In this document: in pieces, positions 9,075-25,082 of the stretch
How positions within the stretch are numbered: the stretch's first letter is position 1
Layout: every line of letters begins with the position of its first letter
Source of the DNA: Natrialba chahannaoensis JCM 10990
GTDB lineage: Archaea > Halobacteriota > Halobacteria > Halobacteriales > Natrialbaceae
NCBI RefSeq assembly: GCF_000337135.1
Contig: NZ_AOIN01000008.1
Location: 1-60,575 of the forward strand
Length of the DNA: 60,575 nt
Direction: 5' to 3'
Position numbers and translations under genes: made by a program
Notes under the pieces: model-generated
Database searches by the model: none
What the model was told of the DNA's origin: nothing
Seen by the model: the letters and a program-made list of their open reading frames with translations, nothing else

Positions 9075-9084
9075 AAATATATGG
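9075..9084 (+). promoter_or_regulatory. TATA box of the DUF7342-type gene
   Basis: AAATATATGG is centred about 27 bases before ATG 9106, the distance expected for a leaderless haloarchaeal transcript. It supports this start codon. Confidence 0.5.
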
Positions 9085-9105
9085 GCTAGTCTCGTTGATC
9101 AAAGT

Positions 9106-9624
9106 ATGACAGACAACACACGCCGCGAAGGGCCGCCCCCATTCGACAGACCGTTCGAAGATGAGGACACGAAGCAGCGCGTATACGGGACGGTGTTGCA
9201 CGCTCGAGAGCCGATGACGGCCGCTGAGATTGCCGAGCAAGCAGACTGTTCGGCGGAGTCGGCACGGACCCATTTGTCGTTCTACGCTGACCTCGGTATC
9301 GTTATTCGGCATGAAGGGCGACCAGTCAGGTACGAGCGCAACGATGACTACTTCGAGTGGCGTCGAGTGAACGAGTTAGCGCGGGAGAATACCGTCGACG
9401 AGTTGCAGGCCCGTGTCTCAGCGCTGACCGATCGAATTGAGGAGTATCGCGACGAATACGACGTCGATTCACCCGCCGAGGTCGACGTCCTCGAGTTCGA
9501 CGCGGCGCGGATCGACGATGTGTATGTCGAACTCGGTGATTGGGCCACCGCTATTGAGGAGCGCCGTCATCACGAACGTGCCCGGAGAAAGGCCGCCAGT
9601 TCAACGACTCCGTCCCACAGCTGA
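9106..9624 (+). CDS. DUF7342-type helix-turn-helix protein
   Basis: A 172-residue protein with a winged helix at residues 22-75 (QRVYGTVLHAREPMTAAEIA, then SAESARTHLSFYADLGIV) and a long helical region ending in a basic tail (HHERARRKAA). It matches the haloarchaeal DUF7342 type. The next gene begins two bases after its stop, so they form a two-gene operon. Given the possible toxin-like nature of the partner, this protein may be the antitoxin and autoregulator; that role is an inference from gene order. Confidence 0.75.
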   Translation: MTDNTRREGPPPFDRPFEDEDTKQRVYGTVLHAREPMTAAEIAEQADCSAESARTHLSFYADLGIVIRHEGRPVRYERNDDYFEWRRVNELARENTVDELQARVSALTDRIEEYRDEYDVDSPAEVDVLEFDAARIDDVYVELGDWATAIEERRHHERARRKAASSTTPSHS

Positions 9625-9625
9625 C

Positions 9626-10057
9626 ATGGTACCAGTGAATGACGGTCGGAGCCCTGCGCCAATCGACCGATCGGTGTTAGAGCGACTTCGATCCCAATTT
9701 CTCGGCAGCCGTATGTTTCAATCGGCAGAAATCGTTACAGCTGGAAAGCTACACCTTCGTGTCGATCTGTCCGACGAGTACTACCCGAACGAAGTGTCCG
9801 CTCGCCTCGAGATCCGCTGGTACCGAAACGACGATTTTAATTTCCACTATCAGGAGGAACGCCAAGTTAGTGCGTGGAAGTGCCGATGGGATCGGCATCC
9901 AAACGCGCACAACTCGAGAGATCACTTCCATCCGCCGCCGGCTGCGAGTCGCAGTGACGCACAAAACGAGCAGTGGCCAGCTGACCATCGCGACGTGAGC
10001 CGTCTCGTCCTCGACCGCATCGAGGAGCGAATCGAAGTACTGTGGGAGCAACAATAA
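9626..10057 (+). CDS. Possible TumE-like (DUF6516-like) protein
   Basis: A 143-residue protein starting at ATG 9626, just after the stop of the HTH gene. The central part runs from DLSDEYYPNEVSARLEIRWYRNDDFNFHYQ to a His-rich block (CRWDRHPNAHNS, then HFHPPPAAS). The RWD...H...HFH pattern recalls DUF6516/TumE toxins, which work with a neighbouring antitoxin. The resemblance is partial and made by eye. A conserved haloarchaeal protein of unknown function is the alternative. Confidence 0.5.
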   Translation: MVPVNDGRSPAPIDRSVLERLRSQFLGSRMFQSAEIVTAGKLHLRVDLSDEYYPNEVSARLEIRWYRNDDFNFHYQEERQVSAWKCRWDRHPNAHNSRDHFHPPPAASRSDAQNEQWPADHRDVSRLVLDRIEERIEVLWEQQ

Positions 10058-10075
10058 GAAGAGAGAGAGGGACTC

Positions 10076-10200
10076 TGTTGAAATCCCTCTTTGGCGTCGC
10101 CAACGAATGCGCCGTCGCGCGTCTGCTGATGCCCAGCACTTCCGATATTTGGTTGCGGAAACACCCGTTGAGGGGTCTGTTGAAACCCTTAGCCGGTGAT
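10076..10200. mobile_element. Decayed IS termini
   Basis: Two similar ends lie in a 220-base gap: GACTCTGTTGAAATCC near 10075 and GGGTCTGTTGAAACCC near 10175. Related TCTGTTGA sequences occur near 24968 and, inverted, near 26650 beside a transposase remnant. They look like terminal repeats of ISH-type elements with no transposase left between them. Confidence 0.35.
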
Positions 10201-10276
10201 AGGTTTTAGGAGTCGTGCTGAATACATAGCGCATAGTCAGTAGATAGCCAGCCGAGGGTTCTACCTACACCGCTTA

Positions 10277-13200
10277 CTAATCACAGATATCTTCTTGATA
10301 TGCGATGATTCCCTTATTGATGTGCTCATAATTGTTATGTAGCTCAGATAATTCATCAGACTTTGCCTGAAGCTCTTGATGATCTAAGGTACGTTCACCC
10401 CAAGGAAGCCAAGCAATCGTCTGCTCGGTCTCCTCAAGATACTTTTCTAGCAAGTCCTTCCGAATATACAATAGCCAAGAATCGTACCGTGCGTTATCGC
10501 ATTGGAATTCCCTATAGATCGTAGCCCTGTTTCCATTTGAGTCAAATAGATCGAATGTCTCATTGTGATTAATCAGATCTATATGTTCACTCAGCGCAGG
10601 GGCGGGGAACCTCATTCCACTTACTTGATTCAGTTGGCTGTGATGTGACTCCCAGGCAAAGACATGTACTGGGATTTCTACCTCCACGCCGTTGCTACTA
10701 CCTCTGTGAGAGCCAAATGCTTTTTCCACGTTCTTCTTTGCTGAACCATTGTCTTCACGCAAATAAGACCCGTACCGATCAGACCACGGGATTTCGCCGG
10801 CGTATGTGTAGTAATCCTCCAGTGGATCCGGGATGTTCCTATTCCCTGGATATTCCGTTTCTCGCAGCTCCTGTTTCAACACAGAAACATCCTCTTCCGC
10901 TACTAGAACTCCTCTCAAGAAGGTAAATATCCTGAGTGCATCCAGGGAAGCTTGCTCAATCTTCCCATCAAGCAATACCCAGGGCCCATCCACACCATCA
11001 ACCGTATCTTTCACAAACAGGTCTTCATAACTTGGGTTTGGGCCGCCTGAAATCCAATCACAATACTCCGAATATTCTGTTTCAAATAGCTCGGGTAACT
11101 TGGGCTTCCACTCTTTAATTTCAGTTGGGAAGCTCGGATCGATGTCACAGTCCGGCGGGCGCACTTCGTTTTCATAAGTTGGTAAAACGCCTTCATCAAC
11201 ACGTTTTCCATACATCTCAAAATAGGCAATCCAAGAGTACTTTTTCCCGTACCGATCTACCTTCGTCTTATCTCTTCCTCGTGTATTTCGCCGATCAATT
11301 TCATTATCAATTGACTCGAAGTCCTCATACGTATATCCGAGATCTTGGACCCGGTTTTTAATCTGTTTTAGAACAGCTTGGTACTCGGGATGATCGTCGA
11401 CATAGTTTCCTCTATCTGGAACTAATCCGCCGACGGTATAGTTACTGAAGTCCATATGAAAAGCTGACTCAACATCTTCGAGCGCATCCTCATCAATCGA
11501 ATCAGAGTCTCGGAACGGAGAGTCAATTTGATTTAATGGAGGATCGGTCAGATCAATCTCACCCTGTGAGATGCAGTCACCGCCGATTCTCCTAGCAAGC
11601 TCAATAACACCTCCCGCATATTGCCGTGACAAGACATGTTTGGTGCCGTAATCCGAGTCCTCCTGGAACATTTTCTTAACCAGTTCTCCTGCAAACTCTG
11701 GAATTTCACTCCTTAGAGTGTCTCCGTCCGGGTCTGCCCACATCGACATTGCAACTCCATAGCAACTCGCTAGCATCCGTTCTCGGACATAAGGGTCATT
11801 GAAAGAGAGTGCTCGAAGAGTTTCTTCAAAGAGGAGTCCAGGATGGGCCAGTCCCACTAAGTACAGTTTATGCGTAACCCGGTCCCGTAGATGTCTGTCC
11901 GTAGTTGTGAGGAATGTAGACAGTAGAGTAATCGCATTCCGTGCTGTGTTCTCGGAAAACTCGTCAACCGGAGCTGTTTCTACCCATTTTATAATCCTAT
12001 GAATAGTTGAGTAATCAGTTGTTCGCCGCAGATATTCAGACCAATGCTCATCGCGTTCAGCCATCTCCATATCATCCAAATATCCATACAGCCGATCCGC
12101 ATCATATGGATGACCGGGACGAGACGCAAGACCAACCAGAACATCAAACGTTTCTCTCTGAACCCTTTCGTCTAACTCTTCCAAGTAGAAACCAACCAGA
12201 TCGTCAGTCTGGTCGGTGAAAGAATCCGCACTCCGCCAATACAGACCATCTAGGAATATATCTTTAATTGGTTCTCCATATTGGCGTTTCTTTGGAATGT
12301 AGAAAGCGAGTTCCCTTTCCTCCTTTGGGAGAACTCGCTTTACCCGTCGAGGGAACTCAACCATGATCGCCTCCGCTAGACCCGGTTCGGCAAATCGCAG
12401 ATTATTACCCACTAACTCGAATATTTGTCCTAATGGCCTGTTCACGTAGAAGCTTCGCCGCACAGCTGTTTCCGAGTCAGTCTTCAGATACTCTGCCAAG
12501 AGGTGGCGTGCAATGATGTGATCTCCAAATCGCTGATACGGAAAACGAACAACCTCCGTTGTCCCCTGGTTGCGGTGGAGTGTTTCAGCCAGTAAACCAT
12601 CGGAGATCATACGATCGAGTAAGTCCCAAGCTTCTGGATCTGAGAGAGAAGTTTCGTCTTTGATTGCATCGATAGCATCTTCCTTCGTAACGAACTCCTG
12701 CATCTCATCAGCCATGATACCAGCAATCCCTGACCTGTGGGTAGGACCTGTAGATGTCCCCTTCATTATTCTCCAACAGGCCTTTCGTATAAGGCCGAAG
12801 TCAGCCTCGATATCTTCACCTATTTCCCGAGCAAAGTGTTCCAAAATATCGGTCATACTTCGCTGGCCGGAGGCAACACTCCTCAGGTAACCCTGCTGAT
12901 CAGATTGATCTCTTCGAGTTATCGCCTCACAAAGTATTTTTAGAAAGAGTGGACGCGAGAATTCCGGTGTCAGTAGGGGTACGTGGGGTGCCGGAACATT
13001 GTAGTAATCAAAGAACTCAATCTGTGCATCAAACTCGTTCTCCTCGAACCCACGGTGTTCAACCTGAACAAGATGGTTTTCGGCCTCGCTCGTTAAAATC
13101 TGTTCATCGAACGGAGTGCGACAACTGAGTGTCAGACCAACATGAGAATAATCCTCAACCTGCTCAGCAACGGAGGCTAACTCATCTCTCCACAGTTCCC

Positions 13201-13981
13201 GATCAGCTTCGTTTATTCCATCAATTAGCAAAAGAGATCTTTTCCCAACCTCTTCGCCAAATGATTGTAGTTCGGTAAGTAGTTGCTCTGGACTCGACAC
13301 TGAATCAATTAACTGGCAGATTCCTTCAAGGGGAGGAACATCATCTGGGAGAGTTTCTGCTAAAACAAGAAGCGTTGGAAGCTCCAAATCCATCCTTATT
13401 TCAGCAAGGTCACACAAAAAGTGTGTTTTACCAGTTCCCCATTCTCCCTTGAGGAACAGGGTCTTGTCCCGTAAAAGAGGGAGTTCCGGCCCCTCAACAA
13501 CGGTAGAAACTCTTTCCAAAGATTGGGACAAATTTTGATTAAGCGAAATTTTGTTGTTTATGTCTCGCTGTTTCTCCTCATCTGCCTCACGATGCTGAGA
13601 TCGCAGTTTCTGGCTGACTTCACTGGTTTTGCCCTTAGCAAACCTTGTTGCACGTGTAAGTTGGCGGAGTTCCGTCTTGTCATCATTAGGTGATCTGTTT
13701 GATATTGACCTCAGAAGTTCGACCACCCGCTCCGGAGACTGTTTTCGACGCTTGAACGCTTCTTTTGCTTCCACCGGTGCTCTATTCCATTCCTCCCCCA
13801 ATTCATCAGCTAAATTGGCTAGCCGCTCTTCCAGTCTCTTAGAATAAGCTAACGCATCAAATGGCTGTAGAACTTCTGAGACCTGTATGTTCGGAGCTTC
13901 AGGATCAATTTGAGGAGTATATCGAGCGCCAGCGTGATTGATCTGTTCCTTATTGACTTCGTTGAGATTTGAGAGTTCCAT
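10277..13981 (-). CDS. Large P-loop NTPase, STAND/AVAST-like candidate
   Basis: A 1234-residue ATPase. Residues 14-35 carry AGARYTPQIDPEAPN, a segment I associate with large bacterial STAND-type ATPases of defence islands. A charged helical region follows (60-150), then Walker A GEWGTGKT at 179-186, Walker B LLLIDGINEAD at 250-260 and a sensor-like LTLSCRTPFD. Residues 400-1234 are mostly helical, with no recognised catalytic motif; STAND proteins usually carry target-sensing repeats there. It follows the methyltransferase-HEPN gene on the same strand after 111 bases and probably belongs to the same operon. A 7-base inverted repeat abuts its start codon. No transmembrane segment is seen, so it should be cytoplasmic. 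The subfamily is uncertain. Confidence 0.75.
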   Translation of the reverse strand: MELSNLNEVNKEQINHAGARYTPQIDPEAPNIQVSEVLQPFDALAYSKRLEERLANLADELGEEWNRAPVEAKEAFKRRKQSPERVVELLRSISNRSPNDDKTELRQLTRATRFAKGKTSEVSQKLRSQHREADEEKQRDINNKISLNQNLSQSLERVSTVVEGPELPLLRDKTLFLKGEWGTGKTHFLCDLAEIRMDLELPTLLVLAETLPDDVPPLEGICQLIDSVSSPEQLLTELQSFGEEVGKRSLLLIDGINEADRELWRDELASVAEQVEDYSHVGLTLSCRTPFDEQILTSEAENHLVQVEHRGFEENEFDAQIEFFDYYNVPAPHVPLLTPEFSRPLFLKILCEAITRRDQSDQQGYLRSVASGQRSMTDILEHFAREIGEDIEADFGLIRKACWRIMKGTSTGPTHRSGIAGIMADEMQEFVTKEDAIDAIKDETSLSDPEAWDLLDRMISDGLLAETLHRNQGTTEVVRFPYQRFGDHIIARHLLAEYLKTDSETAVRRSFYVNRPLGQIFELVGNNLRFAEPGLAEAIMVEFPRRVKRVLPKEERELAFYIPKKRQYGEPIKDIFLDGLYWRSADSFTDQTDDLVGFYLEELDERVQRETFDVLVGLASRPGHPYDADRLYGYLDDMEMAERDEHWSEYLRRTTDYSTIHRIIKWVETAPVDEFSENTARNAITLLSTFLTTTDRHLRDRVTHKLYLVGLAHPGLLFEETLRALSFNDPYVRERMLASCYGVAMSMWADPDGDTLRSEIPEFAGELVKKMFQEDSDYGTKHVLSRQYAGGVIELARRIGGDCISQGEIDLTDPPLNQIDSPFRDSDSIDEDALEDVESAFHMDFSNYTVGGLVPDRGNYVDDHPEYQAVLKQIKNRVQDLGYTYEDFESIDNEIDRRNTRGRDKTKVDRYGKKYSWIAYFEMYGKRVDEGVLPTYENEVRPPDCDIDPSFPTEIKEWKPKLPELFETEYSEYCDWISGGPNPSYEDLFVKDTVDGVDGPWVLLDGKIEQASLDALRIFTFLRGVLVAEEDVSVLKQELRETEYPGNRNIPDPLEDYYTYAGEIPWSDRYGSYLREDNGSAKKNVEKAFGSHRGSSNGVEVEIPVHVFAWESHHSQLNQVSGMRFPAPALSEHIDLINHNETFDLFDSNGNRATIYREFQCDNARYDSWLLYIRKDLLEKYLEETEQTIAWLPWGERTLDHQELQAKSDELSELHNNYEHINKGIIAYQEDICD

Positions 13982-13998
13982 TTAGTCTACCAGACTAA
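13982..13998. promoter_or_regulatory. Inverted repeat at the NTPase start codon
   Basis: TTAGTCT-ACC-AGACTAA is a perfect 7-base inverted repeat directly before the ATG at 13981. It sits where a ribosome-binding site or a repressor site would be and could tune NTPase expression relative to the upstream methyltransferase. Confidence 0.4.
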
Positions 13999-14092
13999 CT
14001 TTGCTTTAATAGTCTTTTTCAACATTCTGGCGTAGAGTCGGGTGATCAGGAAAATGGCCTTGATGATGTCCTAAGCAACTGGTGAATCAGAG

Positions 14093-16663
14093 CTAGGTCG
14101 CTGCTGCTCCTGAATCCTGCTGTTGTGCTATTCGTACGTATTCATTCAGACAGGCGTTGCAGAGAGCGTAGAAGGAGACGAAAAAGTGGATTGACAGTGT
14201 TCGGCTATCTTCGATCACATCTCCGTGTGCTATCCTGTTTCGACGTTGTCTAACTGTCTCGTGGAGATATTCGCTGAATACGCCGTCGAAGAACTGGGAG
14301 ATCAGGTTATCCAGGTTCTTTCGCTTCTGCGAGCGATGTTTCCCTGGCATCTTGAACTCAGTCTTACCGTCCTCTTCGACGATGTCGCCCCCTGCCTCCT
14401 CTACTAGGTCAGCAAGGACTCCTTCGAACTGTAGTACGATTCCAGCGAGGAAACCTCTGTAGTGACCCTCTTCGAACTCCATAAGCAGATCATCCAGAAG
14501 CTCTCGTCTTTCCTCGAAGAACTCTACGTTCCGGAAGGTCTGACGTGCCTGGTCCAGGAGTTCCTGATCAAACCGGTCAATGACGAACTCTTGAGCCTGT
14601 TTACGATCAGATTCAAGCAGTTCCTGGAACTCATCGAACTCGGGCAGGGTCAAGAACCAAGACCAGGCAAAGTTGTCTCTGGAAGCTAAATACCGCCGTA
14701 AGGCCTGCTTCTCCCTCTCTGTCTCATAACTTTCAATCAGAATGTGGTTCAACTTGACGAGGTCGTTATCATCTTCCGGCGGGAAGAAAGGCTCCAGTCT
14801 GTCGAAGGTGTCCTCATTCAACGCCTGCTCAATGATCGGGATTTCCCTTAGCTGGGTGATGTGGATACGGTACCAGTTCAGATCCATTGACTTCGCGTAC
14901 GTTTGGAAAAACTCTCTGTATAGAGGGGTGTTCAACAGCCGGGCTAAAGCATCCCTGCGTTGTTCCCCATCAACTTGGACACCGATTACCGTCGAATCAA
15001 ACACTGCATCATCAACCTCAACAGTATAGCAGACCGGCTCGTCGAAAAATTTAGGGATTATCAAATTCGGATTCTGGAACTTACCAAGATAGTTTGGTAT
15101 GAACGAAAACCCATTTCCTTGGTGGTGAAGCGGACTACTCTCTACATACTCTACCAGTTCTGTGTAGCCGTCATTCTCCAACTCTTCAAGCACCCTTTGC
15201 TCCGTCAAATCCATTCCTTTTGCCTCCAGAGTTTCTATGTATCGAGTGAGATCCAGCAGATAGAGATTGATAACATCCTCAGAAATAGAACGTATATCGT
15301 CAGGAGGATTCTTGATGACGGGACGGAAGAAACGTTCATCGATACCTGACTCCTCCTTCTCACTCGAATCAAAGTAGAAGATATCGTTATTGCCTGTAGA
15401 CACGCCGCTCCCAATCTCGACGCCGGAAAGCTCACCAAGCTTGGTGAAACCTTCAGATGTGAGGATGTCGTAGATTGACGGGTTAGAAAGCATTCTCAAG
15501 ATATTTCTTCCTTCCAAGTCCGCGTGAGAGGTCTTCACCAATTCCGCGTCATAGTGATTATACCTGTTTTCGAGTATGGCGTCTAACGGTTGTTGGAAAA
15601 GGCCTCGTGCGTTGTCGGGCAGTTCCATCTGGTTGAATCGTGCGATTCCGGTCTTCTTGGCCTGAGGATCACGCTCCTCCTTGACCAAGGTTAGGATGAC
15701 TAACTCGACTGAGTGGGAATCTGCGAAGAGTCCCAACGGCAGTTCAACTATTCTATGGATACTGCATGATTCAGTAAGTTGGTTGAGGAGGCCGTCTTTC
15801 AGGGCCATCTTCGGGAGTACGAATGCTCCGCGCCCACCGTCTTTGAGATGGGATACTGCTTTAGCGACAAAAGCGGCAGCAAGTGAGGGCCTTGTTCCTT
15901 GGACCCATTTACTGATTGTTTGTCGCTGTTTTGGTGGCAAGAAGCTTGCTATCGGTGGGTTTCCAACGACTACATCGTATTTCCTCCGGGAATGTTCATC
16001 CGGGCGTTCCTTGACCAATTCTGATTGTTCAGGGGTTCTCCAGTCGAAGAAGTCCTTATTAATGATCTCCGCGTTGTCTATGTCCCTGACTCTGATTTTT
16101 GCTAGTTTAGCGATGAACGGGTATATTTCGACTCCAGTCAAGCGGTTTGAACCTTTTTCGGTATCGAGTCTGGTCACAGCTTGTTTGAGAAGACTACCTG
16201 ATCCTGTAGCGATATCGAGAACAGAGTCGTTCTCTGATGATATTGCCCAGCCCGTGAGAAGTTCAGCAATAGACTCCGGCGTATAGCCGTGTACATAACC
16301 AGCTTCGGATAGGATTCTTGAGGTCTCTTCGATCTTTAATTCCCTGTACACTGTCTCACCAATCAATACCCGTCTGAGAAGTTCTCCGTATTCGTGGACA
16401 TCTCCCAATTCATAGAGCAGGATATCTTCGTCCCGGAACTCAAGAAAGCCATTTTGAACAGTTATCAGTACTCGGTCCGCAGACTCCGGTATCTCCGTTA
16501 TCTGTTTATGAGGCCCGCCAGACTCAAAGATGTAGAAAGCCTGGTTCGCTGTATCGACGACTAATCCGCCACCGCGCATCTCCGCAGCATTAACCGCGGG
16601 AGAGTCCTCTACCTCTTGAGAAAGCAAATACAGATCCAGGTTAGGAGAGTGACGACTGGACAT
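14093..16663 (-). CDS. N6-adenine DNA methyltransferase with C-terminal HEPN-like domain
   Basis: An 856-residue protein from ATG 16663; a TTG at 16687 would add 8 residues. SAM-binding motif I is VLDIATGSGSLL (about 148-159). Motif IV reads GNPPI (about 234-238) instead of the usual NPPY/F/W, so the aromatic residue that stacks on the flipped base is missing. The middle resembles Eco57I/HsdM-type enzymes, including a target-recognition-like end (MDLNWYRIHITQLREIPI). The last 120 residues form a helical domain with RNRIAHG: R808-x4-H813 matches the Rx4-6H signature of HEPN domains, many of which are RNases. The fusion suggests a DNA-status sensor or modifier tied to an RNA-cutting effector, with the NTPase downstream as partner. 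The methyltransferase fold is seen; activity and the HEPN role are inferred. Confidence 0.78.
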   Translation of the reverse strand: MSSRHSPNLDLYLLSQEVEDSPAVNAAEMRGGGLVVDTANQAFYIFESGGPHKQITEIPESADRVLITVQNGFLEFRDEDILLYELGDVHEYGELLRRVLIGETVYRELKIEETSRILSEAGYVHGYTPESIAELLTGWAISSENDSVLDIATGSGSLLKQAVTRLDTEKGSNRLTGVEIYPFIAKLAKIRVRDIDNAEIINKDFFDWRTPEQSELVKERPDEHSRRKYDVVVGNPPIASFLPPKQRQTISKWVQGTRPSLAAAFVAKAVSHLKDGGRGAFVLPKMALKDGLLNQLTESCSIHRIVELPLGLFADSHSVELVILTLVKEERDPQAKKTGIARFNQMELPDNARGLFQQPLDAILENRYNHYDAELVKTSHADLEGRNILRMLSNPSIYDILTSEGFTKLGELSGVEIGSGVSTGNNDIFYFDSSEKEESGIDERFFRPVIKNPPDDIRSISEDVINLYLLDLTRYIETLEAKGMDLTEQRVLEELENDGYTELVEYVESSPLHHQGNGFSFIPNYLGKFQNPNLIIPKFFDEPVCYTVEVDDAVFDSTVIGVQVDGEQRRDALARLLNTPLYREFFQTYAKSMDLNWYRIHITQLREIPIIEQALNEDTFDRLEPFFPPEDDNDLVKLNHILIESYETEREKQALRRYLASRDNFAWSWFLTLPEFDEFQELLESDRKQAQEFVIDRFDQELLDQARQTFRNVEFFEERRELLDDLLMEFEEGHYRGFLAGIVLQFEGVLADLVEEAGGDIVEEDGKTEFKMPGKHRSQKRKNLDNLISQFFDGVFSEYLHETVRQRRNRIAHGDVIEDSRTLSIHFFVSFYALCNACLNEYVRIAQQQDSGAAAT

Positions 16664-16674
16664 CCTTACAGGGG

Positions 16675-17004
16675 TTATAACATCCAAATCACATTAACAT
16701 TAGGTCGTCCGGTTGCTCTTGATCGAATCTGCGGAGCCCTGTGCATGCAGGTATTTATCCTTCTTGTTCGAATAGTTTCTCTTGGGGTTGCTATGAGGTG
16801 TATTTGTTCGCTGGCGGTCATTTCTTCCAATGCATCTTCGTAGTGGCTTACTGTTTGGCGCAAGACGCCGATTTCTTCGACTGTGTCCAACTGCTTAGTT
16901 GTATGATTGCGTCGGATAGAGAGCGGGATTGAATCGTTCTTAGGGTTAGATAGCAGGGCTAGCGGAATAAAATGCCAACTACGCCGCTGAATGTACCTCT
17001 GCAT
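16675..17004 (-). CDS. Doubtful small ORF upstream of the methyltransferase
   Basis: A 109-codon frame with an ATG at 17004. Its middle (KQLDTVEEIGVLRQTVSHYEDALEEM in two adjoining helices) looks like a coiled coil and real protein, while both ends look random. It ends just before the methyltransferase ATG. It may be a small coupled gene or a remnant. The rest of the 600-base gap up to 17268 shows nothing I can assign. Confidence 0.3.
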   Translation of the reverse strand: MQRYIQRRSWHFIPLALLSNPKNDSIPLSIRRNHTTKQLDTVEEIGVLRQTVSHYEDALEEMTASEQIHLIATPRETIRTRRINTCMHRAPQIRSRATGRPNVNVIWML

Positions 17005-17267
17005 TCAGCACCCGGATTCTATCAGCCATCGAGGATTTCAACAAAGTCGGGAGAGAAAGAGTATCGACAACACCGCTTTAGTACGTTTTCTATCGATTGA
17101 ATCGACAGAATTGATTTGAACACCTTTGCGTAAGTAAGTCCCTTTCAGCTATCTAAATTATCGACATTACTGCCGCTCCGTAACCACAACTGGCGATTGA
17201 TCAAGTGGCTTCTCGTTGGCACTCACCTGTATGATTCGTAACCAAATCAGCAGCCGAGAGGGTCAAC

Positions 17268-18383
17268 ATGGGAGAAGTAGATAGGGAGACGACTAGAACC
17301 GGGACGTCTGAGATCAATCTGGTCGACGGAATCTCTGGGAAGCAGTTTCGAGACTGGTATCAGGAGCGGAAATTCCGGAAAAACATCGAAAACGGAAAGC
17401 CGTATTTCAACAGGCCACCGTCGGTTCCGTCACCCCGAAAACATAGTCCAAGCCAGATACTGCAGTGCCACCGAAAAATCGCATACCGTCAACACAATGC
17501 GCCGGCAGAAAAACCAAATCCAACAGGGATCTTTTGGTTTGGGTCACGGTTCGAGGAAGATCTCGTGGTGAAATTTCTCAAAGAGACTGTTGTTAACGAC
17601 CAGGAATATGTCACGAACTCGCTGTGGGTTGATTTTACTGCCCAGACGGATATCGGCGACATTCAGATCAAAGGAGAAACGGATCCAGTAATCGTGGATA
17701 CAGATGGAGAACCGTTGCTTCTCACGGAAATCAAGACCAAGCAATCGGTAGAAAACGTCCGGTCGCCCAACAAGCACCATCGAGCTCAAGCGCATGCGTA
17801 CATGAAAGGATTGTCCGAGAAATACGATCGGACAGTGTCGGAGGCCGTCATCCTGTACGGAAGCCGAAAAACGTTCAACGCCAAAGCGTTCCATATCGAA
17901 TTCGACCCATGGTTTTGGCGCAACACGGTTCTAAATTGGGTGGAGACACACACGACGTACCGTCTCAACGAAGACCTGCCACCAGCAGCCCCGGAGTACA
18001 GTTGGGAATGTAGCTCTTGCTCTTATAGAGAGCGATGCGGACGAGGTAGTGCAAGTTACGAGGACGTAGACGCTACTGGATTGCTCCCTCTCCATGAGTA
18101 CCCGGAGAGGGTGGTTAGAAGGTATTTAGAGGGTCATAAGGATGTAAAGCTCACACCAACCCTTTCAGAACGGTATCCAGAATTAGCGGACAAATTTGGG
18201 GTACACGATTGGCGATGTGAGCGTTGCGATGGAACCTATCCACACGATTCACCTGACTGGACTGGGAACGTTTCGGAACCGCCTCTCTGCCCGTCTTGCT
18301 GCGACGATGGTGTACCAGCTACGTTAAGAGGAGACTCCATCGACACTCAGAAAATAGAAGAAGGTCACCATGTCGCGGAATAG
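17268..18383 (+). CDS. Cas4-like Fe-S exonuclease with extra zinc ribbon
   Basis: A 371-residue PD-(D/E)xK nuclease of the Cas4/RecB type. The nuclease core is GETD (Asp139), then LLTEIKTK (Glu154, Lys156), then the QAHAYMKG helix (Gln174). Cys67 (ILQCHRK) with Cys248, Cys251 and Cys257 (ECSSCSYRERCG) is the four-cysteine set that binds a 4Fe-4S cluster in Cas4. A C-terminal extension carries another CxxC pair (CERC, CPSC near 313-345), an added zinc ribbon not found in ordinary Cas4. There is no cas1, cas2 or CRISPR array in the window, and the following genes are recombinase genes, so it probably processes DNA ends for the mobile element. Its end overlaps the next gene by 14 bases. Confidence 0.8.
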   Translation: MGEVDRETTRTGTSEINLVDGISGKQFRDWYQERKFRKNIENGKPYFNRPPSVPSPRKHSPSQILQCHRKIAYRQHNAPAEKPNPTGIFWFGSRFEEDLVVKFLKETVVNDQEYVTNSLWVDFTAQTDIGDIQIKGETDPVIVDTDGEPLLLTEIKTKQSVENVRSPNKHHRAQAHAYMKGLSEKYDRTVSEAVILYGSRKTFNAKAFHIEFDPWFWRNTVLNWVETHTTYRLNEDLPPAAPEYSWECSSCSYRERCGRGSASYEDVDATGLLPLHEYPERVVRRYLEGHKDVKLTPTLSERYPELADKFGVHDWRCERCDGTYPHDSPDWTGNVSEPPLCPSCCDDGVPATLRGDSIDTQKIEEGHHVAE

Positions 18384-18936
18384 TTGGCTACATCTCGATG
18401 ACCTTCGAGAGAGCTGGCTGTTCCTCATCGCTGGCGGGACTGAACAATCAGGCCAGCCAGAAGGTTCGCAGAATTCTGCTGGAGAGATTGAGTACTGGGA
18501 GATTGGCGTTGGGAACCCAGAGAAGTTAGTCGAAACAGCGGCGTCGAGTTTGGCTGGCGAACACGTCCACTCCCAAGATAATCTTCTCACCGAACTCCAT
18601 AACGAACTGAGAGCATATCGCTATCAAGACACGCTACTCGTCACACTGGACCAAGAGATGATGCAGCAACTTCGAGCGGAGCTCATAGTATCAGAGATCG
18701 AGATGCCATCCCTTCGAGGATTCACACACGTTGATATCGAGTCGCAACTGCAGACACAGTTTGGGCAGTCACTCGCTGACTATGGACTTACTGAAGAAGA
18801 GCGACGTCGACCGCGTGTAACGGATGACACGAAACAACAGGTCGTGAGCAACGGAACAGCAGAACGTGTCTGGGAGATCTGGACGCGCCTATATCGGTTA
18901 GTTCCAAGCACTGAACTCGAGGGAACACCGCTATGA
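18370..18936 (+). CDS. Unknown protein coupled to the Cas4-like gene
   Basis: A 188-residue soluble, acidic protein I do not recognise. Its start lies inside the 3' end of the Cas4-like gene, so the two are co-translated. The stretch from LLTELHNELRAYRYQDTLLV to GFTHVDIESQ, with alternating strands and helices and acidic residues, could hide a nuclease-like or RNase H-like fold, but no clear catalytic set is seen. It likely assists the nuclease. Confidence 0.65.
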   Translation: MSRNSWLHLDDLRESWLFLIAGGTEQSGQPEGSQNSAGEIEYWEIGVGNPEKLVETAASSLAGEHVHSQDNLLTELHNELRAYRYQDTLLVTLDQEMMQQLRAELIVSEIEMPSLRGFTHVDIESQLQTQFGQSLADYGLTEEERRRPRVTDDTKQQVVSNGTAERVWEIWTRLYRLVPSTELEGTPL

Positions 18937-18994: not shown

Positions 18995-19528
18995 ATGAAC
19001 GAAGCAGACCCGACGTTTGTCCGTCGGAAATTCACAATCACGGAGAGACTTGACCAAACATTACAGGAAATGGCTGCGCGTCACTATCAGGGGAATGTGA
19101 GCCTGTGTCTGCGCGCAGCGATCGAAAGTCATCGAGAAACTCTCGAGGGAGATGGCCAATTTGCAGTTCGTCAAGTCGTGCGGCAGTTAGATACACTCCA
19201 ACAGGCAATGCAGGAACTCCAAGCTGATGTCGATAATGCCCTCGTGGAGAGGGACGAAGTTCAGAAGGAAACACAGCTACGTTCAGCTGTATGGGGCGTC
19301 GAGTTGACGGAGGGGATGCAGACCATAATTGATGCTTTGAACAGTTCTGGGTCACCGTTACGGATAGAGGATCTCCTCGAGCAGACCGAACTGAATCCAC
19401 CGCAGCTTCAGAAAAACCTAGGGCGGCTGGTTGACCTAGGATTCGTGGTCGAGACAACTGATGGAAAACAACGATACGGACGTGCTGGCCAGATCAATGC
19501 CTCGAAGAATCGGGGAGGGTTACAGTGA
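18995..19528 (+). CDS. RHH/winged-helix DNA-binding protein, copy 1
   Basis: A 177-residue regulator. The N-terminus (RRKFTITERLDQTLQEMA, then NVSLCLRAAIESH) is a ribbon-helix-helix domain. A coiled coil lies at about 60-95 and a winged helix (IIDALNSSGSPLRIEDLLEQ...LGRLVDLGFV) at about 107-165. The stop overlaps the recombinase start as GTGA, so it is translationally coupled to it. It may be a directionality or transcription factor for the recombinase. It is a paralogue of the protein at 21074-21634. Confidence 0.75.
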   Translation: MNEADPTFVRRKFTITERLDQTLQEMAARHYQGNVSLCLRAAIESHRETLEGDGQFAVRQVVRQLDTLQQAMQELQADVDNALVERDEVQKETQLRSAVWGVELTEGMQTIIDALNSSGSPLRIEDLLEQTELNPPQLQKNLGRLVDLGFVVETTDGKQRYGRAGQINASKNRGGLQ

Positions 19529-20529
19529 CACAAGATATCGATATCAGCTGCCGTCGAGTACCGGACAAATACGCGAAAGAGTATCTGCAGCACGCAGCGG
19601 GTCTAAAGCTGGCGTCCAGTACCACAAAGACGTACGAATCCCATCTCAGAGGATACGTTACATTTCTTCACGACGATAATACCTCTGTCCTCGAGGCGAC
19701 GTTCACAGATGTCCTAGAGTTCGTCGAGAAGTGCGTCCGGCTCGGGAATCGTCGATCGACAATTGAGGGAAAAGTAACGACGATTAGTGAGCTGTACAAG
19801 TACATTCGACTCCGAACGGAGGAAGGTGATGACCTACAATTAGAACCCTTACGGGTAGAAAATATCGATATAAGCCGCTACCAGACGCCAGAGCCGATCA
19901 AGCGAGAAGCGCTCTCTCGGGAAGAGTTACGCCGGTTGTTCGATGCCTTTGATTCCTATCGAAATCGGCTCATGGCAGTGGTTGCAGTTGAGACTGGCCT
20001 TCGAAACTCAGATTTGCGAGAACTCAAAATCACAGATATAGATTTTGATTGTTTACGAATTCACGTATCTGATCCGAAGGGATCGAAACCTTACGATGTC
20101 CCGATAAGCGACGAGTTGGTGTACGAATTGGAGTTCTGGCTTCGACATCATCGAACTGGCTATGCGAGGTCAGATGAGAGTCCATATGTGTTTCCAAGCC
20201 AGTGTGGTTTGAAATTAGAAACGAACGGTAGTTTTAATCAGATAGTTCGTGACGCAGCTGAGCAGGCTGGATTGCAAGAGGTAGTCGGTGAATCACAGAT
20301 TCAGCGGAATGACGGATCAATGCTGGAAAAGGATACACGACAATGGCATCGAGTGACACCCCATACGCTCCGCCATTCGTTTATCACTCTTCTCGCGGAT
20401 TCAGGCGTGGAAGTATCATATAGACAACTAGTGGCTAATCACGCGAGCGCAGAAACGACGCGCAAGTACACCCATCTGACTGAAGATCGTTTTTCTACGA
20501 TCCGGGATAGATTCGTGCCACCAAGGTAG
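19525..20529 (+). CDS. Tyrosine recombinase, copy 1
   Basis: A 334-residue XerC/phage-integrase-type recombinase with a GTG start overlapping the RHH gene. The N-terminal core-binding domain spans about residues 10-100 (TKTYESHLRGYVTFL). The catalytic domain is complete: Arg in TGLRNSDL, Lys in DPKGSKPYDV, HTLRHSF for the His-x-x-Arg box, His in VANHAS and the nucleophile Tyr in TRKYTHLT. It should cut and join DNA at the element's own sites. The neighbouring nuclease and paralogous modules suggest an integrative element. Confidence 0.9.
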   Translation: MTQDIDISCRRVPDKYAKEYLQHAAGLKLASSTTKTYESHLRGYVTFLHDDNTSVLEATFTDVLEFVEKCVRLGNRRSTIEGKVTTISELYKYIRLRTEEGDDLQLEPLRVENIDISRYQTPEPIKREALSREELRRLFDAFDSYRNRLMAVVAVETGLRNSDLRELKITDIDFDCLRIHVSDPKGSKPYDVPISDELVYELEFWLRHHRTGYARSDESPYVFPSQCGLKLETNGSFNQIVRDAAEQAGLQEVVGESQIQRNDGSMLEKDTRQWHRVTPHTLRHSFITLLADSGVEVSYRQLVANHASAETTRKYTHLTEDRFSTIRDRFVPPR

Positions 20530-20924
20530 GACTGGGCACCCTATAGAGGTCATACTGAACACCTATTTATCCGGTTCAGGTTTGGATTTTAAAGTTCTCT
20601 GAAACATAGTAAGGGTGTCCCAATCGACTACCTTTCCCTTATTATGATAATGGTATTTATAATAGATTTTTGAATAATTCTATTTGGCCACTTATTCCCT
20701 CCATATATTGGATTGCTCTGCCTATAGGATTTCTTTTGGAAGTTTTAATTCGCAAAACCCAACAAAAATAAGGTCCTGGGCAGAGAACAATTGTCTGTCG
20801 CATAGCGGAAACTCTGTGTGGCCATGCTCCGACCGCGCATCTCCCTTACCAATAGCCACGGGTGTGGTCTACTTGCTGGGAGAGACCGGGGTGCTACAAC
20901 ACCCCGGAAGCGGAGTCTACGATC
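20530..20924. other. AT-rich intergenic stretch with a hairpin
   Basis: This 395-base stretch between the two recombinase modules is strongly AT-rich at 20580-20770, with no convincing gene. At 20886-20907 CCGGGGTG and CACCCCGG form a perfect 8-base stem with a 6-base loop; it could be a transcription terminator, an RNA element or part of a recombination site. Confidence 0.5.
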
Positions 20925-21077
20925 ATGACAACCGAGAACTCCGATAAGGACATTCAGTTGTACAGAAATAAGCCCTACGGGCTGTATAGAAATAGCTGTT
21001 CAGAACGCCAAACTCCTACACAAAAAGTCACCAAATATCTCTATAAAGCACCGCTAAAGAAGGGTGACTTGAGTTGA
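20925..21077 (+). CDS. Small ORF coupled to RHH copy 2
   Basis: A 50-codon frame from ATG 20925. Its TGA (21075-21077) overlaps the TTG start of the next gene (21074) as TTGA, the same coupling style used throughout this cluster. The product is basic in its second half (KVTKYLYKAPLKKGD) and has no recognised fold. A short repeat, AGCCC-TAC-GGGCT, lies inside it. It may be a leader peptide that couples translation. Confidence 0.4.
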   Translation: MTTENSDKDIQLYRNKPYGLYRNSCSERQTPTQKVTKYLYKAPLKKGDLS

Positions 21078-21634
21078 CCCGGGATTTTTCACCATCGGTT
21101 GGTGTTTCTTCTGGGGACCAGACAGGGAATTCCTCCTCCGATGTTGTCCGACCAAGTGTGACGATTCTGGAACGACATATGCAATTGCTTGATCAAATGG
21201 CAACCGAGAGATATGCTGGGAATCGAAGTGCGTGTCTACGAGCGGCCATAGAGGATCATGCAAGATCACTTGAAGGAGAGAATGAATTTGAGGTTGAACA
21301 GCTAGTAGTGGCCGTACAAGATTTGGAGGAAAGAGTAAGTGATGTTCAAAGATCATTGCAAGAGAATTTAGAGGAAAAGCCAACTGGTGAGGACCTCAAG
21401 CAAACTCCCCAGCACCAGAACAAGGATTCAGAGAGGCAACATCAAATTTATGAACTCATTTCCAGTCAGGGATCAATCTCACTCAATCAGATCGCATCGC
21501 ATGTTGATGCACCTCTGGTGGAGCTCGAGAGTACACTACAAACCTTGTGTGATCGAGGTTTAGTCAATAAAACTAGCTCCTCGGGGCGCTTGGAATACGA
21601 AATTGATGTATCTGGGGTGTCAAATAATGAGTGA
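21074..21634 (+). CDS. RHH/winged-helix DNA-binding protein, copy 2
   Basis: A 186-residue paralogue of the protein at 18995-19528. It has an RHH-like segment (VTILERHMQLLDQMA, then NRSACLRAAIEDHARSLEGE), a coiled coil (residues 75-100) and a winged helix (YELISSQGSISLNQIASHV...LCDRGLV). The only in-frame initiation codon close to the upstream stop is TTG 21074, supported by the TTGA overlap with the small ORF. Its end overlaps the recombinase by 8 bases. The two copies have diverged well beyond a recent duplication. Confidence 0.7.
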   Translation: MTRDFSPSVGVSSGDQTGNSSSDVVRPSVTILERHMQLLDQMATERYAGNRSACLRAAIEDHARSLEGENEFEVEQLVVAVQDLEERVSDVQRSLQENLEEKPTGEDLKQTPQHQNKDSERQHQIYELISSQGSISLNQIASHVDAPLVELESTLQTLCDRGLVNKTSSSGRLEYEIDVSGVSNNE

Positions 21635-22658
21635 GAAAAACAGCGAGATCAAAGATGGGCTAGAGCTAAAGACGGGGTCTAAACTAGCAACTGAATATCT
21701 GCATTCTGAGTGCGGGGCAACAATATCTAGAAACACTGCGAAAACCTATCAGTCGTATTTGAGAGGGTATATCGAGCATTTAGATGAGATTTCGGTGGAA
21801 GTTCTCTCAGCAAAATCTCAGAATGTACGGTCTTACTTGAAAAAGAGAGCTCGACACGGTAGGCGAGAAGGCACACTTAGATTAGATTTAACAGTAATCA
21901 AGGGATTGTACAAATGGATTCGGTTGGAAACAGAAAAAGAGGCTCTAATTGATTATCTTTCTCTCGAGAACATTGATATTGGGAGGTTCCGCACACCTCC
22001 AACGATCGAACGAGAGCCCCTAAATAAAGACGAGTTAGAGGCTTTGTATGATGAACTGGATACTTTTCGAGATCGGCTGATGGTCACAGTTGGAGCAGAA
22101 CTGGGTCCACGTAATATCGACCTCCGAAAAATTAGAGTTGGAGACGTTGACTTTGAGGGCAGAACAATCAGCCTATCAGACTCAAAGGCACGTGATAGGT
22201 ACTCTCTCCCAATCAGTGATACCCTAGCAGTGGAACTAAAACACTGGCTGACTGTGTATCGACCAACGTATCCGTTTTCAGAGGATCACGATTACGTGTT
22301 CCCCTCCAACCAAGGCGGACACCTCTCCGATAGTCGTCTATTGGCAATTGTTAAAGAAGCTGCTCGGAATGCAGGAATACAGGAAAGTCTCGGAGAGTCG
22401 TGGATGTCTGAGCGACAAAAAGATGCACTCGGTACTGACGCAGATATTCGAGAATGGAAAAAAGTGACAGTCCATGCACTTCGTCATACCTTCGGTCATC
22501 TAATGGAAGAAGCAGGGCTCTCGCCTGAAGCCCGACGTGACGCTCTAAACCATAAGTCTACAGAAACCACTGAAAAATATTATTCAAGCAATGCAACGGA
22601 GTACAAAGAATTAATAAGAGAGTTGCTGCACAAGGAACGGGACAACGACGACAACTAA
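21627..22658 (+). CDS. Tyrosine recombinase, copy 2
   Basis: A 343-residue recombinase from ATG 21627, overlapping the RHH gene by 8 bases; an earlier in-frame ATG at 21603 would lengthen the overlap. All catalytic residues are present: Arg in LGPRNIDL, Lys in SDSKARDRYS, HALRHTF, His in LNHKS and Tyr in EKYYSS. The N-terminal SAM-like domain (KTYQSYLRGYIEHL) parallels copy 1. The gene pair duplicates the module at 18995-20529, but the sequence is AT-richer. Confidence 0.88.
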   Translation: MSEKNSEIKDGLELKTGSKLATEYLHSECGATISRNTAKTYQSYLRGYIEHLDEISVEVLSAKSQNVRSYLKKRARHGRREGTLRLDLTVIKGLYKWIRLETEKEALIDYLSLENIDIGRFRTPPTIEREPLNKDELEALYDELDTFRDRLMVTVGAELGPRNIDLRKIRVGDVDFEGRTISLSDSKARDRYSLPISDTLAVELKHWLTVYRPTYPFSEDHDYVFPSNQGGHLSDSRLLAIVKEAARNAGIQESLGESWMSERQKDALGTDADIREWKKVTVHALRHTFGHLMEEAGLSPEARRDALNHKSTETTEKYYSSNATEYKELIRELLHKERDNDDN

Positions 22659-22807
22659 CCCTATCATTCGCTTCTATACTCTTTTCATAGAGATCGCTGT
22701 CAGATAACGAACCTTAACCGCCATCTGGAGATCACCTCCCAAGATACACTTAGACAGTACCCACTGAGTGACCACTGCACTTCTACGAACATGCATTCTT
22801 GGAACCG

Positions 22808-22830
22808 GAGTGGTCACTCAGTGACCACTC
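22808..22830. promoter_or_regulatory. 23-base palindrome before the recombinase pair
   Basis: GAGTGGTCACT-C-AGTGACCACTC is a perfect palindrome with 11-base arms. A further half-site, AGTGACCACT, lies at 22767-22776. The palindrome lies 76 bases upstream of ATG 22906. It is either the operator of this operon or a recombinase crossover site; the extra half-site favours cooperative protein binding. Confidence 0.6.
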
Positions 22831-22905
22831 ATCAGAGAGCACCCTGAAATGGCATAATTTCAGCTCAAGGCTCTATCTTAGTCGAACAATTCTGGAGGTG
22901 ATACA

Positions 22906-23814
22906 ATGACCTGCTTTGAGCAGGTTGAGGGAGCGAGTGACTCTTTTGAGTCTCTTGACAGTGCAACTGAATCATATCTGAGTGAATTGTCAAGCAGTGT
23001 TCCCGACTCTACGTTTTGGTCCCATCAAACTGCAATCATTAAACTCGGAGAGTGGTTCCCAGAATCCAATTTTTCTGAAGTTTGGTTAGAAGACCATCAT
23101 CTATGCCGATTCATTGAATACTTGATAGAGAGCTCTACTCAAGATATTACTACGATCTGTGGATACATAAACTCCTTAATAAATTTCCGATCATACGTTC
23201 ACCAAGAAGATCCTACCATCCTCAAAGCAAGATTGCTATCGAGGATGAAATCATCCGATGTGATAGAGTACAGCGAGATCAATGAACACGTTCTCGGCAT
23301 CTCTACACGTGCTGACAGCCAGAATCTATCCGATCAGATTTCATCGTTGGTAACCTACCTCCGTGAGCGTCAGTTCGGTACTCGAGTTCACGCATATGTT
23401 GAACTCATACTTGATACATGTAGCCAACCTGGGTGTGTGCGATATCTCGACCTTGAGGACGTCAACTCGGATAACGTTACAGTCGTAATCTCGATCCCAG
23501 AAACGCATCTCGTAAGCAGGGCTGGTCTTGTAACACAGAGAGTTGCAAATATTTCACCAGAAACTTCGGAGGCTCTTGAAGAGTTCATAGCCTATGAACG
23601 GAAAGAGCCTACAGAATCCTCTGATAGCCCATTATTGACAACCTCCCATGGGAGGGCGAGTGAATCGACGCTTCGGCGGGAAATGAAACAAGCCAGTGAA
23701 AGTGCAGAAGAATATCCTGGTGTAACGTCACCTCTCACACGACACCAAACTAGTTGCGTCGTCCCCAGTGAAATCTGGCAGTATTCGATTTTGCAGCTCC
23801 TGGAGGAACAATGA
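22906..23814 (+). CDS. Catalytically broken tyrosine recombinase-like protein
   Basis: A 302-residue protein preceded by a full Shine-Dalgarno sequence, GGAGGTGAT (22894-22902), unusual among haloarchaeal genes and a sign of strong translation. The N-terminal half looks like a recombinase core-binding domain. In the catalytic half DTCSQPGCVRYLDLEDV aligns with the active-site segment of the next gene (NGGPRIGGVHSLDV), with Gln in place of the first catalytic Arg. The HxxR box and the nucleophile Tyr are missing because the protein ends early. It is coupled by an ATGA overlap to an intact recombinase. It may be a non-catalytic partner subunit rather than simple decay, since the frame is clean. 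Confidence 0.65.
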   Translation: MTCFEQVEGASDSFESLDSATESYLSELSSSVPDSTFWSHQTAIIKLGEWFPESNFSEVWLEDHHLCRFIEYLIESSTQDITTICGYINSLINFRSYVHQEDPTILKARLLSRMKSSDVIEYSEINEHVLGISTRADSQNLSDQISSLVTYLRERQFGTRVHAYVELILDTCSQPGCVRYLDLEDVNSDNVTVVISIPETHLVSRAGLVTQRVANISPETSEALEEFIAYERKEPTESSDSPLLTTSHGRASESTLRREMKQASESAEEYPGVTSPLTRHQTSCVVPSEIWQYSILQLLEEQ

Positions 23815-24941
23815 ACGAGAATATTGTCCGTCTGCTGTCGGAGATCGATGATCCTGAGACCATCGAAAAAGTGCTGAAGCAAATGGATGTGGACGATACG
23901 TCTCAAGAGAATTCTACTCGAAATAGCTTTGCTCGAGCCACCCTCTCTGATCTCTACAAGCGATTTCTCTCGCGCAGGCAGAATCGAAGCCCGTCAACGC
24001 GGGCCCAATACAAGCGAACGATTCCTCGATTCGTTGAATTCGCGGAAGACAACGACATTACGTACCCAGTAGAGATCTCTTCACCGTTGGTTGATGCGTA
24101 CGTCGACTACTTACAGTCGGAATATGACTCTGACTCAACGATCCTTACGTATACGAAGAACGCACGCACATGGCTTCGGTGGCTCAGCCAACGGGAACTA
24201 TGCGACGAATCAATTTACAGGATCCTCGATAAGGAGGAACTCGGTTTGACTCCAAGAGCTCGTGACGAGGCGATTCCGAAATCTGAAGCCACAGGTCTCC
24301 TTCATCGACTCCGGCGACGTCGACGAGGTTCTGGTATGCATGCTCTCACAGAACTTCTTTGGAATGGTGGACCACGTATTGGTGGCGTACACTCTCTTGA
24401 TGTCCCGGATTTTGACCCCGAGAAGAAAGAACTCCGCTTCCGTCACAGACCGGAAACAGGAACGAGGCTAAAGAACGGGAGCGAAAACTCGAACACGGCT
24501 GGTGATGGTGAACGAAACATTGTGATAAAAGACGAGGTCGTAAGCGCAATTCAATTGTATATCGAGACAGAACGGCCTGACGTTACTGACGAGTACGGCC
24601 GAGAGCCGTTATTTGCGACAGAATACGGACGGGCATCTCGGTCGACACTTCGGCGATGGGTGTACGAAGCTACGAGCTGCCGCTGGAATCCAAAAGATGC
24701 GGATGATTGCTCGTGTGATGGTAGCTGTAATCCTGATTCGAACGTATGCCCGGAGTCATATTACCCACACGCGATCCGTCGAGGATCGATTGTCAGCCAT
24801 CTCAGCGGTGGCCTCCGGAGAGAGCGAGCAAGTGAGCGATTTGACGTCTCTGTGAAGGTGATCAAGAAGCACTACGACCCTCGCACGGAACAAGATCGTC
24901 TCAACGATCGACGCGAAGCAGTCAAGCGTTCGTGGAATTGA
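23811..24941 (+). CDS. Tyrosine recombinase with cysteine-rich insertion
   Basis: A 376-residue integrase with GGAGG (23802-23806) before its ATG, which overlaps the preceding stop. Catalytic residues: Arg in NGGPRIGG, Lys in GTRLKNGS, PHAIRRG for His-x-x-Arg, and Tyr in KKHYDPR. Before the HxxR box is a cysteine-rich insert (DDCSCDGSCNPDSNVC) that probably binds zinc. A decayed copy of the C-terminus lies at 49441-49605. It is probably the active member of a two-subunit recombinase with the broken protein upstream. Confidence 0.88.
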   Translation: MNENIVRLLSEIDDPETIEKVLKQMDVDDTSQENSTRNSFARATLSDLYKRFLSRRQNRSPSTRAQYKRTIPRFVEFAEDNDITYPVEISSPLVDAYVDYLQSEYDSDSTILTYTKNARTWLRWLSQRELCDESIYRILDKEELGLTPRARDEAIPKSEATGLLHRLRRRRRGSGMHALTELLWNGGPRIGGVHSLDVPDFDPEKKELRFRHRPETGTRLKNGSENSNTAGDGERNIVIKDEVVSAIQLYIETERPDVTDEYGREPLFATEYGRASRSTLRRWVYEATSCRWNPKDADDCSCDGSCNPDSNVCPESYYPHAIRRGSIVSHLSGGLRRERASERFDVSVKVIKKHYDPRTEQDRLNDRREAVKRSWN

Positions 24942-25082
24942 GCTACGATACTATTAGATTGAAATGGCTCTGTTGAGGCCCATTCGTTCTCAACGACCGA
25001 AGGAAGCGAGTAAGGCGGGGTAGTTCACAGATCCAATCGCTGGATACAGATTGCCGGGAACTGGGGACGACGGTCCACGAAT

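Follow-up and report, generated by a model that had tools for sequence, protein, structure and literature searches.

A recurrent run of tyrosine recombinase-fold genes and its composite 76-bp site in tRNA-inserted islands of haloarchaea

What is a run of four tyrosine recombinase genes doing in an archaeal genome? The 60,575-nucleotide stretch of Natrialba chahannaoensis JCM 10990 analyzed here (the window, which is the start of contig C8 in an assembly of 106 contigs) carries such a run at positions 18995–24941, with the genes arranged in coupled pairs. A self-contained element comparable to the bacterial recombinase-in-trio (RIT) elements, a chance accumulation, and a component of something larger all come into consideration. 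Our favored reading, to which we give about an even chance, is that a family of islands has this run as its backbone, and that in these islands the recombinases R1 and R2 with their RHH partners would form a resolution module acting at a 76-bp site, and R3 and R4 an accessory pair.

A recurrent six-gene run

The run consists of six genes on the forward strand, with the positions and the three overlaps that the initial annotation of the window gave them. RHH1 (18995–19528), an open reading frame whose AlphaFold model suggests RHH, long-helix and winged helix-turn-helix (wHTH) parts, overlaps its partner R1 (19525–20529), a XerC/D/XerA-like tyrosine recombinase, by 4 bp (GTGA). RHH2 (21074–21634), a paralogue of RHH1 with 30% identity and a TTG start in the list of open reading frames, overlaps by 8 bp its partner R2 (21627–22658), which is XerC/D-like, is read from the ATG at 21627, and is 41% identical to R1. 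The third pair is R3 (22906–23814), a conserved, tyrosine-less protein of recombinase fold, and R4 (23811–24941), a tyrosine recombinase in which R, K, HxxR and Y are kept, with a 4 bp overlap (ATGA). The genes were thus rightly described as two-gene units with regard to the overlaps within each pair, but they do not form one unbroken overlapping series, as 544 bp separate R1 from RHH2 and 247 bp separate R2 from R3.

R1 and R2 match Pfam PF00589 strongly, R4 mainly via its SAM-like N-terminal domain, and R3 only weakly (E 2.7e-5). The R-K-HxxR-H-Y set is complete in R1 and R2, in 11 of 11 homologues of each; the best-matching models for both are XerA/C/D, with scores below the NCBIfam cut-offs, and the nearest solved structures to R1 are archaeal Xer, XerA and XerD. 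No family match was found for the RHH part of RHH1, so that label reflects a sequence pattern together with a modest model (4 sequences, pLDDT 73) in which a two-helix segment at the N terminus is followed by a long helix and, at the C terminus, by a wHTH; our structure models were built on 4–6 sequences each.

For R4, R2 and R3 our searches covered 146 genomes of the order, and with an R4 profile 391 haloarchaeal genomes of the class, an even sample in which counts ignore species relatedness (sampled genomes are numbered G, and loci L). The R4 subfamily is present in 21 of the 391 genomes with 54–95% identity, and an R3 homologue lies directly upstream of R4 in every one of them (fragmentary in G051). 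All six genes are found in the same order in the window and in five further genomes (G128, G189, G156, G295 and G072, a Halobacterium sp.), spanning different genera and families of haloarchaea. Identities to the window are 74–93% for the G128 run, and in G072 are 60% for R1, 59% for R4 and 31–33% for RHH2, R2 and R3; G162 also has the six genes, with RHH2-R2 inverted. The R1 family occurs in 11 of the 391 genomes, eight of which are also R4-positive (Fisher p 2e-9, uncorrected for species relatedness); seven of the eight have both genes in one locus, and in G051 they are 0.5 Mb apart. The modules are also found separately, as R3-R4 without R1/R2, and as R1/R2 without R4. We found no prior report of the six-gene arrangement in the open-access papers searched, subscription papers being outside the scope of the search.

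With its six genes in unchanged order in other genomes, the run is not a chance accumulation, and the expectation of a real, recurrent archaeal unit is borne out. A pile-up of unrelated recombinase genes might have been looked for in an insertion hot spot, which the window is, given that it has additional integrases, all of a single family, and repeated att cores; however, a six-gene order that is the same in other genera and families, the strong co-occurrence and a common cis site make this scarcely credible, and the recurrence of the whole run already contradicts it.

Two of the relatives show local rearrangement. In G128 (L040) an insertion of ~1.6 kb interrupts R4 near its 3' end, and in G189 (L108, 9566–11226) a distant homologue (35%) replaces RHH2-R2 between flanks that are 78–87% identical to the window, which by sequence comparison is a mosaic exchange of one recombinase pair. 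Outside cellular genomes, R4 has no match in plasmids at 1e-60, only 31–36% matches to virus integrases among phages, and no relative in IMG/VR; R1 has none in plasmids (1e-50) or phages (1e-30), and only 21–34% relatives in IMG/VR.

A 76-bp composite site in the R2–R3 interval

A composite recombination-like site (22755–22830, forward strand) is located between R2 and R3, 75 bp upstream of R3, with two conserved palindromes of the TGGTCACTNAGTGACCA type (17-mers at 22758 and 22811, 53 bp apart) positioned around inverted arms and a CATGCA center at 22790–22795. A palindrome pair at exactly this 53 bp spacing is present at 10 loci; in G234 the pair comes directly after R1, and in the others downstream of R2. 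The inner 36 bp are not fixed in sequence and are dyad-symmetric about the exact midpoint, with 90 of 180 mirror pairs complementary versus 47 ± 6 in shuffled sequences, and dyad complementarity is 62 of 120 at the true center versus 24–37 at other centers. The symmetry is seen at distances 4–11 from the midpoint and not at 1–3, with the arm length past 8 bp being uncertain. Arm pairs that are changed on both sides score 7 of 8, and controls with slid pairing are lower. This layout of an arm, 6 bp and a second arm matches the core of a tyrosine recombinase site, with the palindromes lying outside it.

The site search used a covariance model, since an exact degenerate pattern was too strict and missed even the site in the window. 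With strict filters, the model finds one site in each of 10 genomes and none in the other 381; because the ten sites trained the model, only the absence from the 381 genomes is new information. All ten site-bearing genomes are among the 11 with R1, and the core occurs once in the genome to which the window belongs, with up to 3 mismatches allowed. A palindrome search upstream of R3 in islands lacking R1/R2 gave no common site. The presence of a lone, intact site argues against its being one of the attL/attR ends, and for a role in resolution or regulation. The 76-bp sequence is a putative archaeal two-recombinase site, apparently undescribed, with element-specific arms.

Several described systems offer precedents. 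R1 and R2, being catalytically complete, Xer-like and adjacent to a dif-like core, resemble TnpS/TnpT-rst or XerCD-cer. As with XerC/XerD at dif and at cer/psi, there are two paralogous, complete Xer-like enzymes and inverted arms around a 6-bp center (PMC2958812), and, as at cer/psi, flanking accessory sites; here, unlike XerCD, the enzymes are element-encoded with RHH partners, the arms vary between loci, and flanking palindromes take the place of ArgR/PepA or FtsK-dependent control. In archaea, the Xer/dif system that has been described works with a single XerA (PMC2958812). The TnpS/TnpT-rst system of Tn4651 and the TnpI-irs system of Tn4430 have in common with the run a tyrosine recombinase with a helper protein, a core inverted repeat with a second repeat pair adjoining the recombinase genes, and interchangeability with serine resolvases in related elements (PMC7157771). 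Tn3-family transposons use either serine or tyrosine resolution systems (PMC7157771), and serine recombinases likewise take the R1/R2 position in other islands of the family described here. The run differs from these systems in having two recombinases and two RHH/wHTH helpers, in the palindromes on both flanks of the site, and in its carrier, an archaeal tRNA-inserted island; its resolution function is only putative.

On the reading that we favor, island integration would be the task of another enzyme, the integrase (INT) encoded at the opposite end of the island, which would target the 3' end of a tRNA gene (in most cases one for tRNA-Met). RHH1-R1 and RHH2-R2 would together constitute a XerC/XerD-like resolution module of heteromeric composition. 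R1 and R2 would bind the two inverted arms and exchange strands across the 6-bp center, while the RHH/wHTH proteins, presumably the natural binders of the flanking palindromes, would build the synaptic complex and limit the reaction to direct repeats. The likely outcome would be the reduction of dimers or tandem copies of an excised or replicating element to monomers. We infer both resolution as the reaction and the assignment of each protein to its DNA, and the site makes the proposed reaction directly testable; if active, it would also be useful for halophile genetics.

There are several points that weigh against this proposal. G051 has an R1 homologue without a recognizable site, the sites number only ten and some of them are related, and the plasmid searches yielded no R1- or R4-bearing plasmid or free circular form. 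R1/R2 and R3-R4 are not obligate partners, because R3-R4 persists in islands without R1/R2. Moreover, the palindromes could be operators, and the location of the site upstream of R3 means that it could be a promoter region. In the fullest version of this alternative, the site is an operator of an R3-R4 promoter bound by RHH1/RHH2, and perhaps by R3, with R1 and R2 recombining elsewhere. The position close to R3 in the window and in other collinear loci, palindromes of ~21 bp with 10-bp half-sites, which is the size of a dimer operator, the fixed 53-bp spacing (about five helical turns) as expected of cooperative operators, and the precedent of MrpR for repressors with a recombinase fold are all consistent with it. 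However, four loci (G162, G278, G234 and G126) have the site close to R1/R2 and do not have it upstream of R3, and an operator needs neither symmetric, covarying arms nor an asymmetric 6-bp center between its palindromes. We regard an operator as unlikely. We also weighed an RNA hairpin and an attC-like folded strand, which are less likely readings, as outer elements that are self-palindromic and at a fixed spacing fit protein-bound duplex DNA better.

A tyrosine-less partner of R4

R3 had been described as a broken recombinase gene, a description that is too simple. Its homologues, at 25–83% identity, have the same terminal motif, of V-P-S-[DE]-[IV]-W type, at the place of the HxxR of active enzymes, and nothing follows it; the HxxR His/Arg and the tyrosine region are missing in all aligned homologues. 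R3 thus lacks the HxxR, the H/W position and the nucleophilic tyrosine of an active enzyme. The ratio of nonsynonymous to synonymous substitution rates (dN/dS) is 0.22–0.29 in three pairs, indicating purifying selection in most comparisons, and 0.79 in the very close pair G119–G307, in which constraint is weak or unresolved. A pseudogene was considered and ruled out by the end motif in all homologues together with the dN/dS values of 0.22–0.29.

The predicted R3 model (pLDDT 80, pTM 0.80) has the fold of a core-binding plus a catalytic domain. It aligns with XerA (5hxy) with a Z-score of 14.8 over 221 residues (root-mean-square deviation 18 Å, both domains) and with an archaeal Xer (4a8e) with a Z-score of 12.9 (6.4 Å). 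Aligned to Cre, it reaches only residue 303, ahead of the catalytic residues W315 and Y324. Repressors with a recombinase fold and no catalytic set are known, of the SPbeta MrpR/YopR type (PMC10516654), and R3 is like these in its fold and lack of catalytic residues, differing in that it stops before the tyrosine region and that its gene overlaps that of a live recombinase.

Our best guess is that R3-R4 is an accessory pair of a dead and a live recombinase that regulates excision or directionality. R4 would be the live enzyme, and R3, as a subunit bound to DNA or to R4, would probably exert the regulation. The pair is constant across island types and for this reason is not specific to the 76-bp site. 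One could also imagine R1, R2, R4 and the dead R3 as a single four-protein machine on the composite site, with the RHH/wHTH proteins setting its geometry and R3 as a dedicated non-cleaving subunit, swapping defense cargo or switching the island between integrated and replicating states; we think this improbable. The conservation of R3, without a tyrosine yet coupled to a live recombinase, raises the question of whether some subunits of recombinase tetramers are dedicated to a non-cleaving role.

The conserved block and its tRNA islands

Most loci could be viewed with 40–100 kb of assembled sequence, and the blocks containing the run are seen to sit in islands that have a tRNA-Met gene at the start and a repeat of the tRNA 3' end beside an integrase at the far border. 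The layout is tRNA-Met (forward), R4 (forward) and INT (reverse), with att repeats at the borders; most loci in which INT was found have it 3' of R4 and on the other strand, and the arrangement is reversed in G162 and G175. The islands of G072 and G238 are ~64 kb and ~40 kb, further tRNA-Met islands include those of G156 and G128, and G175 has tRNA-Val instead. Exact repeats of the tRNA 3' end measure 16 bp in G238, 14 bp in G156, 20 bp in G162 and G175, and at least 14 bp in G072. Of 116 genomes, 12 have an INT homologue at 69% identity or more, and 11 of these are R4-positive; the remaining one, G163, lacks core genes within 40 kb.

The window has right-end att copies only, the left end being off the contig. 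The tRNA-Met 3'-end core CCGTCAGGGCCCA is found at 42553–42565 (forward), the probable right end of the island containing the run, and again at 57114–57126 (forward), an outer attR copy at the border to G+C-rich chromosome, past which G+C climbs to 58–66%. An intact integrase of the clade accompanying R3-R4 (INT, 55999–57009, reverse strand, Pfam PF00589) precedes the outer copy, and a deleted copy (42005–42448, reverse strand), matching only INT residues 1–61 and 231–335, precedes the inner one. The three copies of this integrase family (42005–42448, 48298–49311 and 55999–57009) have similar upstream DNA, and two have an att core. Given the att cores at 42553 and 57114 and the three INT copies, the first of them internally deleted, the window is, as far as sequence can tell, a case of tandem island accretion at one tRNA-Met site, and the internally deleted copy is probably the run's own INT.

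The island setting also bears on the resemblance to RIT elements, which have three directly overlapping tyrosine recombinases (RitA, RitB and RitC) with a possible catalytic motif in all (PMC3414803). As in RIT, several tyrosine recombinases are adjacent, with overlaps of 4–8 bp, and are often on genomic islands (PMC3414803); unlike RIT, the run is made of helper-recombinase pairs and a dead-live pair with gaps between them, RHH2 lies between R1 and R2, only R3 and R4 overlap among the recombinases, and R3 is not catalytic. An independent RIT-like transposable element that sits within the islands and is moved by its own four recombinases would account for a compact recombinase-rich block whose homology stops within ~45 bp of the R4 stop and whose flanks differ between genomes. 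Yet a comparison of left and right limits at 14 loci gave isolated 11-bp matches and no consistent direct or inverted repeats, shorter or distant repeats being beyond the test, nor did an empty site of the run turn up, though both had been suggested as checks. Furthermore, the conserved block extends leftward through four more genes (F5, F1, F2 and F9), its order and orientation relative to the tRNA gene and INT are mostly fixed, the composite site is single and intact and not split into two end sites, and the modules are found separately. Such an element is thus improbable: the proposal of an archaeal RIT counterpart is upheld as to a recurrent unit, and is not supported as to a self-contained element, as the run has separable halves and lies inside larger tRNA islands. 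A search for the empty site of the G238 island, as joined flanks in 4 genomes of its genus, gave no continuous match.

The GInts (ginABCD) have three recombinases and a small GinD at one island end followed by cargo, and their GinC is without a catalytic arginine; they are reported absent from archaea (PMC5385486). The likeness is that of recombinases and a small DNA-binding protein as the backbone of an island with variable cargo (PMC5385486), and the difference is that the GInt operon itself integrates the island, whereas here the gene set and order are others and a separate INT is at attR.

Clustering of neighboring genes gives the block order as F9 or F6 (a small wHTH protein, reverse strand), F2, F1, F5, RHH1-R1, RHH2-R2 and R3-R4, with homology limits at the F9 end and within ~45 bp of the stop of R4, the last gene. 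The last conserved bases after R4 (24942–24984, forward) are shared by the window with G128 and G189 only; on the left, homology starts at 8194 in four genomes. F9 (8168–8407, reverse strand), at this left limit, is a small winged-HTH regulator divergent from F2 and 85% identical to F9 of G414 (tblastn); a homologue matches HTH_24 just under the Pfam cut-off, and PHROG transcription regulators. F2 (8590–8955, forward) opens the block, and is a DUF7344 wHTH protein (PF24035, matched by a homologue), 88% identical to F2 of G128 and present in 11 other compared loci. F1 (17268–18383, forward), part of the core block, is a Cas4-like PD-(D/E)XK nuclease (Pfam PF12705, PADLOC Cas4, PHROG 1706) kept in 11 of 21 compared loci. 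F5 (18370–18936, forward), a conserved protein of ~190 aa without a Pfam or PHROG match, precedes RHH1 in every collinear locus.

In G119, G307, G238 and G235, the R1/R2 position is taken by two serine recombinases (PF00239) and a TFIIB-like protein, in islands that retain F1 and R3-R4; similar serine recombinase genes are elsewhere in the island of G185, and a different gene precedes R3-R4 in G344, G414 and G087. The serine recombinase module may have its own site. It has the TFIIB-like protein between the two recombinases and adjoins the Cas4-like nuclease (L041, 4952–8072, with related loci in G307, G238, G235 and G185), and the same module is present at a plasmid locus (L136, 9001–13294). 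On haloarchaeal plasmids F1 adjoins serine recombinases or Cdc6 genes; its homologues are directly 3' of Cdc6/Orc genes at L135, L137 and L138, an adjacency that suggests a role for F1 in replication or maintenance. Archaeal integrative islands thereby gain a defined backbone, with integration by INT, resolution putatively by either R1/R2 and the site or by serine recombinases, and a constant dead-live pair.

Within the window, an 8.2-kb insertion relative to G128 (8956–17178) parts F2 from F1, which are contiguous in G128, and contains IS-like DNA, an Avs2-like NTPase (10277–13981, reverse strand; PADLOC Avs2, E 5.9e-182) and an N6-methyltransferase (14093–16687, reverse strand; Pfam N6_Mtase). 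The defense systems of the island link the backbone to the spread of defense genes among haloarchaea. This cargo (Avs2-like, GmrSD, HmaB-like methylase with SNF2/PLD-type helicase, and AbiE) could point to an integron- or invertase-like function, in which the four recombinases and the site exchange or invert cargo, as could the inversion of RHH2-R2 and its site relative to R1 in some relatives and the replacement of RHH2-R2 in G189 between conserved flanks. However, neither the window nor its own genome holds the site or core more than once, and no cassette-like repeats were seen, and we consider this function rather improbable. Of the defense genes, the HmaB-like methylase, SNF2/PLD-type helicase and GmrSD (HEC-05-like) are at 595–8131, and an AbiEi/AbiEii toxin-antitoxin pair is at 34630–36251, in a stretch that is ~93% identical to the DNA downstream of R4 in G189.

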